Shown piece by piece: positions 59,426 through 60,430 of a stretch of DNA of 64,000 bases. The translations under genes were made by a program, and so were the position numbers. Under the pieces are notes generated by a model that saw nothing but the letters and a program-made list of their open reading frames with translations, ran no database searches and was not told the DNA's origin. The stretch comes from Akkermansiaceae bacterium (GTDB lineage Bacteria; Verrucomicrobiota; Verrucomicrobiia; Verrucomicrobiales; Akkermansiaceae): NCBI GenBank assembly GCA_028822935.1, contig JAPKCM010000013.1, positions 1 through 64,000 on the forward strand, in the 5' to 3' direction. The number at the start of each line of letters is the position of its first letter. Position 1 is the first letter of the stretch.

Positions 59426-59734
59426 TTGCTGATGGATCCCGGAACGACACAACTTACTTTTCGGGATCACCGCCTCGGCGACCGAATCATATACAAAGCC
59501 AAACGAGTCCCCCGAGAGAGTGTGCCAGTTGCCCGGAATATTGAGACCACGACGCCCTGCTTCATGATCAGCGAAAATTCACCGGAGCGAGATTCGCTTT
59601 TCATGAGCAAGCTCAAGTCGCTGAAGGTGCCGGTGGAACATCTGACCTTCCCCGACGCGCTGCATCCTTCCTGGCATTGGGACCCATGGTTCACGGTGAC
59701 GATGGAGAGGTCGCATCTTCAACAATGCGCATAG
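59426..59734 (+). pseudogene. Possible C-terminal remnant of an alpha/beta-hydrolase
   Basis: A 102-residue frame whose second half (TTPCFMISENSPERDSLFMS, KLKSLKVPVEHLTFPDALHPSWHWDPWF) resembles the end of esterase/peptidase-type alpha/beta-hydrolases, where a late Asp and His stand around 'D-x-x-V-P-x-x-x-x-x-x-F-P-x-x-x-H'. The catalytic serine half is absent. The first part has no recognisable character. It may be a relic of a deleted gene, or a coincidental frame. No other feature is seen in the 59342-59804 gap. Confidence 0.3.
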
Positions 59735-59804
59735 TATTGCATTGTGAATTTATTATAAAAACTTCACTTGCGGATCAATAAAAGCGCCATATTGTCCCAT
59801 CGTT

Positions 59805-60368
59805 ATGAGAACAACAGTCCTAATTGGAATGATGTACGCTTTCGGCTCTCTTGGCTCGGTTGCCTTCGCAGCTGATGCTAAAGAAGCCGCAGTGGCAGAA
59901 AAGATGATGGCTCACTCGATTTCCTTCAGTGGAGGTGGGTGAGGTGCTGCTGGTAAGGCCCGTGTGGCCTTGTCGAAAATGGAAGGTGTGGAAAAAGTCC
60001 TCGTTTCGGGAACTAACGCCATCGTAATTCTGAGCCCTGATCAGGATGACCTTAAGAAGGCGTCGATCCGTAAGGCTTTTGGTTCTGCCGGTCTCAAGCT
60101 TGAAAAGGTTACCAAAGGTGAATTCGATAAGCCACAGGCTGGCTACCGTTTCGTTGGAAAAGGAGGAGGATGAGCAACCACCAATGAGAGAGCGCGTGTC
60201 GCTCTTACAAAAATTAATGGTGTTAGCTTTGCTTTCGTAGGCGCACGGAGCATCGAGGTTCTTCTCGGCTCTGCAAGCGATTATGATCAGGCAGCCGTTG
60301 AGAAGGTTCTCAAGCGTGCGAAGTTTAACGTTACAGACAGCTCAAAAATGAACTCTCTGCCACTTTAA
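59805..60368 (+). CDS. Candidate periplasmic selenoprotein with tandem HMA/MerP-like repeats and two in-frame TGA codons
   Basis: One frame of 187 codons runs from ATG 59805 to TAA 60366-60368, interrupted only by TGA at 59940-59942 (codon 46) and 60171-60173 (codon 123). Without recoding it would give three useless fragments. With TGA as selenocysteine (U) it gives a signal peptide (residues 1-22, ending VAFA) and two similar repeats: SFSGGGU then KARVALSKMEGVEKV, and FVGKGGGU then RARVALTKINGVSFAF. The second half of each repeat (A-L-x-K-x-x-G-V) is the HMA/MerP helix. Cysteine stands at this site in ordinary HMA domains. Each TGA is followed by a SECIS-like hairpin, and a strong terminator ends the gene. 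TGA is an ordinary stop elsewhere in the window. No sel genes are present here. Confidence 0.72.
59951..59975 (+). promoter_or_regulatory. SECIS-like hairpin after first TGA
   Basis: AAGGCC (59955-59960) pairs perfectly with GGCCTT (59966-59971) around the loop CGTGT (59961-59965). Four further pairs including G-U wobbles extend the stem to 59951/59975. The loop starts 19 nt after the TGA, within the range known for bacterial SECIS elements, which lie inside the coding sequence. Confidence 0.6.
60188..60206 (+). promoter_or_regulatory. SECIS-like hairpin after second TGA
   Basis: AGAGCG (60189-60194) pairs perfectly with CGCTCT (60200-60205), with one more G-U pair outside. The loop CGTGT (60195-60199) is identical to the first hairpin's. 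The stem sequences differ completely while pairing is kept. The loop starts 22 nt after the TGA. Confidence 0.6.
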
Positions 60369-60394
60369 GGTCGCAGGTTACTAAAATTACACCG

Positions 60395-60430
60395 AAAAGG
60401 CCCGTCGCGTGATGCGTCGGGCCTTTTCAT
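60395..60430 (+). terminator. Strong rho-independent terminator after the selenoprotein candidate
   Basis: AAAAGGCCCG (60395-60404) pairs with CGGGCCTTTT (60418-60427) around a 13-nt loop containing GCG/GTG complementarity, followed by a short T-rich run. It lies 26 bp after the TAA. Confidence 0.85.

Follow-up and report, generated by a model that had tools for sequence, protein, structure and literature searches.

The gene at 59805-60368 on the + strand of the window (the whole 64,000-nucleotide stretch of Akkermansiaceae DNA that was analyzed) encodes a protein with two selenocysteine (Sec) residues, and there is very little room for doubt that this is a real selenoprotein. The two-TGA frame, its conservation, the SECIS element that follows each TGA, the Sec machinery of the genome, the fold and the position of Sec within it have each been established computationally. 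That Sec is actually inserted is inferred; the computational case is very strong, without an experimental demonstration. We propose that the product is an exported protein of two tandem HMA domains that acts as a periplasmic metal clamp formed by two selenolates. We put the probability of this reading at about one half, with Sec insertion, export, metal binding and partners all inferred.

The original prediction was of a single 187-codon frame broken by two TGA codons, each preceded by Gly-Gly-Gly, and the frame is exactly as described. It runs from the ATG at 59805 to the TAA at 60366-60368, and its only interruptions are the TGA codons 46 (59940-59942, + strand) and 123 (60171-60173, + strand), lying in the contexts GGGUGAA and GGGUATT respectively. 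Pipelines that take TGA as a stop truncate the protein at residue 45. Residues 1-22 (59805-59870, + strand) form a putative signal peptide terminating ...SVAFA/AD; the N-terminus is hydrophobic, homologues have an AxA-type end, and the pLDDT of the AlphaFold2 model is low over residues 1-29. Export is inferred from this signal-peptide-like N-terminus.

The gene is a solitary one, followed by a terminator-like hairpin. Read directly from the sequence, this is GAAAAGGCCCG...CGGGCCTTTTC at 60394-60428 (+ strand), ~25 nt 3′ of the TAA. It is also seen within a sub-threshold Rfam alignment, and is absent from the list of a generic terminator scan. On the other side of the gene, conservation upstream of the ATG points to a putative promoter TTGCGG-16 nt-TATTGT (59768-59795, + strand) that ends 9 nt before the start codon. 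Almost every homologue from the same genus has a TTGC(A/G)-16/17-TAnnnT element upstream of the ATG, at constant distance, and this conservation next to the ATG suggests that the mRNA is likely to be leaderless. A generic sigma-70 promoter scan returned no score for the element. Within the neighborhoods of 32 loci there is no conserved operon around the gene, and no neighbor that would mark metal handling. Directly upstream in the window (59426-59734) is a 102-codon ORF resembling the C-terminal remnant of a larger enzyme; it is not conserved with the selenoprotein gene.

The predicted structure is that of two HMA modules, as had been anticipated. An AlphaFold2 model (30 sequences, mean pLDDT 79) contains two β-α-β-β-α-β units, comprising residues 33-108 (59901-60128, + strand) and 112-181 (60138-60347, + strand), with Sec46 and Sec123 lying where the first helix of the respective unit begins. 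Compared domain by domain (model residues 33-110 for the first), the structures fall among copper chaperones and HMA domains with Z scores of 9-11. Matches include the copper-binding domain of HMA7 (3dxs, Z = 10.8 for domain 2, 72 residues, 1.9 Å) and CopZ (Z = 10.5). The Foldseek TM score of the whole two-domain model is low, presumably due to a differing relative placement of the two domains. At the level of sequence the match to Pfam HMA is weak. The window protein does not reach the gathering threshold of PF00403 (16.1 versus 24.8 bits), while 20 of 30 family members match at E ≤ 0.1, the best at 1e-7. The ferredoxin-like HMA fold is seen in the predicted model only. HMA sequence profiles match CopA, ZntA, MerP and CopZ, and in these alignments Sec is placed on the first cysteine of CxxC. 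The metal-loop position of Sec suggested in the original prediction is therefore upheld by both model and alignment.

The loop is nevertheless not that of a standard HMA domain. The CxxC test is failed, the motifs being UxxA and UxxT with the second cysteine replaced by alanine or threonine in the window protein, and the loop methionine of GMxCxxC is mostly glycine within the two-TGA family. With both the second cysteine and the methionine lost, ordinary metal binding by a single HMA domain is impossible. The mature protein has no cysteine in any of 30 members, nor any conserved histidine, and of the 16 invariant columns none but the two Sec residues and the initiator methionine offers a ligand for soft metals.

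How might such a protein function? SelB and tRNA-Sec would decode each TGA as Sec under the guidance of a dedicated hairpin, which lies 12 nt beyond the first TGA and 15 nt beyond the second. The exported, cysteine-free product would then present one selenolate per domain, in place of the first cysteine of the GMxCxxC loop. With one domain folded against the other, or with partners engaged, the two selenolates would most likely form a clamp for a single soft metal, Cu(I), Hg(II), Ag(I) or Cd(II), which they would coordinate as a near-linear pair of ligands, and so buffer the ion in the periplasm or hand it over. This metal role is inferred solely from the predicted fold, the position of the residue and the content of ligands. 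If metal is indeed bound, this would be a natural two-selenolate metal site, and a direct test of why evolution pays for Sec where cysteine normally suffices.

The main rival retains the two-Sec selenoprotein but gives it a redox role, in which an intramolecular Sec46-Sec123 diselenide would cycle with peroxides or with partner thiols and disulfides in the periplasm. Two Sec residues in an otherwise cysteine-free exported protein are just what a diselenide switch should look like, and most selenoproteins are presumed to catalyze redox reactions (PMC13188914). Yet the predicted fold is that of HMA and not thioredoxin-like, there is no UxxC or CxxU resolving partner, and no redox gene is conserved next door; a peroxiredoxin lies ~0.7 kb away in only 6 of the 32 loci. 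We consider the redox role unlikely, while not dismissing it.

Improbable, in our view, is a third possibility, that the same selenoprotein holds or carries selenium itself, or serves as a sacrificial trap for electrophiles. It is a small exported protein with two Sec residues, and the presence of the gene tracks that of the Sec machinery. Against this, two Sec in 187 residues is a very modest load, and their strict positional conservation inside an HMA fold suggests a site rather than a store.

How well are the two TGA codons conserved? A search of 97 relatives found a homologue in 36 genomes, including the window's own, and a profile search of 387 genomes of the order gave 50 full-length copies. 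Homologues of the same architecture occur in >50 other Verrucomicrobiales genomes, with 29-70% identity in pairwise search. Every full-length copy, down to ~30% identity with the window protein, has exactly two TGA codons at these two places and no other stop (50 of 50 in the search of the order), so that the claim that the pair lies beyond chance is borne out. One shortened copy (in G019) retains the single TGA that falls within its 77 residues. Neither cysteine nor any other sense codon was seen at either TGA site among the copies found. In codon alignments of related pairs the dN/dS ratio is 0.00-0.30, both in the stretch separating the two TGA codons and in the one that follows the second; translation must therefore pass through both of them. 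As judged from these alignments, purifying selection persists past each TGA.

As far as a pattern-based scan can tell, the family seems not to extend beyond the Verrucomicrobiales. No copy outside the order came to light in 388 genomes sampled across the phylum. Scanning the contigs of 84,980 species with the single window sequence as query gave no match; an alignment-based scan of the same species gave 31 loci, all with Verrucomicrobiota-type titles except one labelled 'Bacterium', and including the cultured Roseibacillus persicicus KCTC 12988 (gene at L075:10001-10576). The original prediction had looked to cysteine homologues for confirmation. These did not materialize: no cysteine orthologue was found in the 387 genomes of the order or the 388 of the phylum, and the TGA-less matches were, where inspected, P-type ATPases or generic CxxC HMA proteins.

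Each TGA is followed by a hairpin of the bacterial SECIS type, with a stem of 6 bp and a 5-nt xGUnn loop. SECIS 1 (AAGGCC-CGUGU-GGCCUU, 59955-59971, + strand) begins 12 nt after the first TGA with a minimum free energy of -11.2 kcal/mol, and SECIS 2 (AGAGCG-CGUGU-CGCUCU, 60189-60205, + strand) begins 15 nt after the second, at -9.3 kcal/mol. Published criteria for the bacterial element require a loop of 3-9 nt, a stem of 4-16 bp, a G as the first or second base of the loop, a spacing of 16-37 nt between UGA and loop, and an energy of -7.5 kcal/mol or below (PMC13188914). All are met: the loops are of 5 nt with G second, the stems have 6 or more bp, and the distances are 18 and 21 nt. A strict SECIS-type scan covered every TGA triplet of the window on either strand, 2,252 in all; six passed, of which just two lie on the + strand, namely those of codons 46 and 123.

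Aligned across 38 loci, SECIS 1 has 95.8% of the cells in its stem paired and SECIS 2 has 99.4%. Double changes number 21 for SECIS 1, compared with 6.8 on shuffling, and 49 for SECIS 2, compared with 17.5; in neither case was the observed value reached in any of 500 shuffles, and the pairing is lost when the partner strand is slid. In SECIS 1 it is largely synonymous third bases that covary (AAG/AAA for Lys with GCC/GCT for Ala), and the signal is thus not a by-product of protein conservation. The xGUnn loop is kept almost throughout the loci, as CGUGY, AGUUC, GGUUC or GGUCA, with CGGGY in two. Taken singly, the hairpins have weak energy z-scores (-0.5 and -1.3), and Rfam gave no match to a SECIS-type family. 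The case for SECIS, which is one of sequence comparison, is carried by covariation and not by hairpin stability.

The genome also has the means to use these elements. A check for the four sel genes had been proposed, and all are present: selA (1.5e-145) and selB above cut-off, selC (tRNA-Sec, 53.9 bits, anticodon TCA, i.e. UCA) and selD (G000:C53:6429-7358). The last is itself a selenoprotein gene with one in-frame TGA (CGGU). A CACGCA-CGUGC-UGCGUG hairpin lies ~26 nt after the TGA of selD, with the same type of loop as SECIS 1 and 2. Over the 97 relatives selA is present in 34 of 36 carriers of the two-TGA gene, compared with 19 of 61 non-carriers. The two carriers without it are incomplete MAGs (72 and 83% complete). 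Outside the genus the figures are 11 of 12 and 17 of 58 (Fisher p = 9e-5), bearing in mind that kinship inflates such p-values. Taken with the TGA codons of the homologues and the covarying hairpins, these genes support the selenoprotein reading originally advanced.

TGA is an ordinary stop elsewhere in the window, ending 9 of 29 long ORFs, and this could be held to favor a pseudogene (in decay or frameshifted), or a split of the region into two or three short ORFs, each TGA being a genuine stop; that reading is refuted as far as sequence allows by the TGAs shared among homologues, the low dN/dS after each and the covarying hairpins. Equally negligible is the decoding of TGA as another amino acid (Trp, under code 4) or by generic read-through, for while the frame is open under code 4 too, the 9 TGA-terminated ORFs, the complete Sec machinery, the SECIS after each TGA and the alignment of the residue with cysteine, not tryptophan, in HMA proteins all speak against it.

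Is the family new? It is previously uncatalogued, whereas HMA- or MerP-type selenoproteins as such are already known in single-domain form. No model of NCBIfam (June 2026) or Pfam claims the window protein, and a tandem GGGU type is absent from the 119 families and subfamilies of prokaryotic selenoproteins that a 2026 review sets out (PMC13188914). The best NCBIfam or Pfam model for the window protein is NF041115 (UxxU_metal_bind), whose cut-off of 95 bits far exceeds the 21.7 bits obtained; the UxxU motif is lacking, and 27 of 30 family members match this model weakly. The two have in common an HMA-type module with Sec at the metal loop. They differ in that NF041115 describes a lone 74-position domain whose UxxU holds both Sec, while the window family has two domains with one Sec in each (GGGUxxA and GG[GT]UxxT). 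The 'putative mercuric reductase' N-terminal-like selenoprotein in Table 1 of the review is of the NF041115 type (PMC13188914).

Sec is likewise used in heavy-metal handling by the MerT/CopZ fusion-like transport selenoprotein (NF045683), the mercuric transport selenoprotein with C/SxxU (PF02411) and a ZntA-type P-type ATPase with UxxC. These are membrane transporters or fusions, whereas the window protein is small and, by inference, exported, and none of the three models matched it at E = 10. NF045648 (MbdU, a metal-binding double selenoprotein) is not among the matches at E up to 10. The second-best NCBIfam match is MerP (TIGR02052; E = 4.2e-4, 20.8 versus 92.55 bits, below cut-off), which is also a periplasmic HMA protein but consists of one CxxC domain. 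CopA and ATP7B (1p6t, 2rml and 2ew9) do have a pair of adjacent ferredoxin-like HMA domains, and this group, with CopZ, provides the best sequence-profile and Foldseek matches. Unlike the window protein, CopA and ATP7B have CxxC in each domain, are cytosolic and are joined to a P-type ATPase.

The novelty claimed at the outset thus stands for the family and not for the kind, given NF041115, NF045683 and the two MerP selenoprotein sequences reported in the GOS survey of 2008 (PMC2398784), which may or may not belong to the window family or to single-domain cousins of it. Selenoprotein discovery has as its standard the search for Cys/Sec pairs (PMC13188914), and a family with no cysteine counterpart would be missed by it. 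With the window family the selenoproteome gains one that has two obligatory Sec residues and no cysteine counterpart. A bolder claim is that this is the first example of a tandem-domain selenoprotein whose two HMA domains hold a soft metal by nothing but their two selenolates, without any sulfur ligand, that nature has no cysteine orthologue of it, and that it belongs to a whole complement of exported, Sec-based metal chaperones found only in the Verrucomicrobiales. This we advance only tentatively, regarding it as rather less likely to be right than the metal clamp alone.

Further HMA selenoproteins are found in the same genomes, comprising exported single-domain UxxxC proteins, lipoprotein forms and tandem UxxxC proteins. 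The window's own genome holds two. One (L139; G000:C100:22715-23053, minus strand) is an exported single-domain protein with GLRUASGC, a UxxxC motif one residue longer than CxxC. The motif is followed by the hairpin GUGCAGGUUGCAC, and orthologues occur in many relatives; it is apparently unmodelled in NCBIfam, the best matches of its relatives falling well under cut-off. The other (L140; G000:C67:14656-14895, plus strand) is lipoprotein-like, with an LVAC lipobox and GMTUGVGC, and related lipoprotein forms (L146-L149) have GMTUPGGC. In another family of the order, a tandem HMA protein whose two domains each have UxxxC (L141:4651-5226, in G076:C31) represents a second and separate two-Sec tandem architecture. 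A lipoprotein-like HMA protein with GVVUGGC (L145:4280-4705, in G034:C3) has UxxC, one TGA and an xGUnn-type hairpin. The hairpin loops of these further selenoproteins include GGUCU and GGUCC, a type that we take to be the loop of the E. coli formate dehydrogenase SECIS. Lastly, three genomes (G046, G292 and G337) encode exported tandem HMA proteins (L106, L107 and L108) with GMTCxxC in both domains, extra cysteines and a VCHKSGH motif, a sulfur-based counterpart within genomes that also carry the Sec protein.
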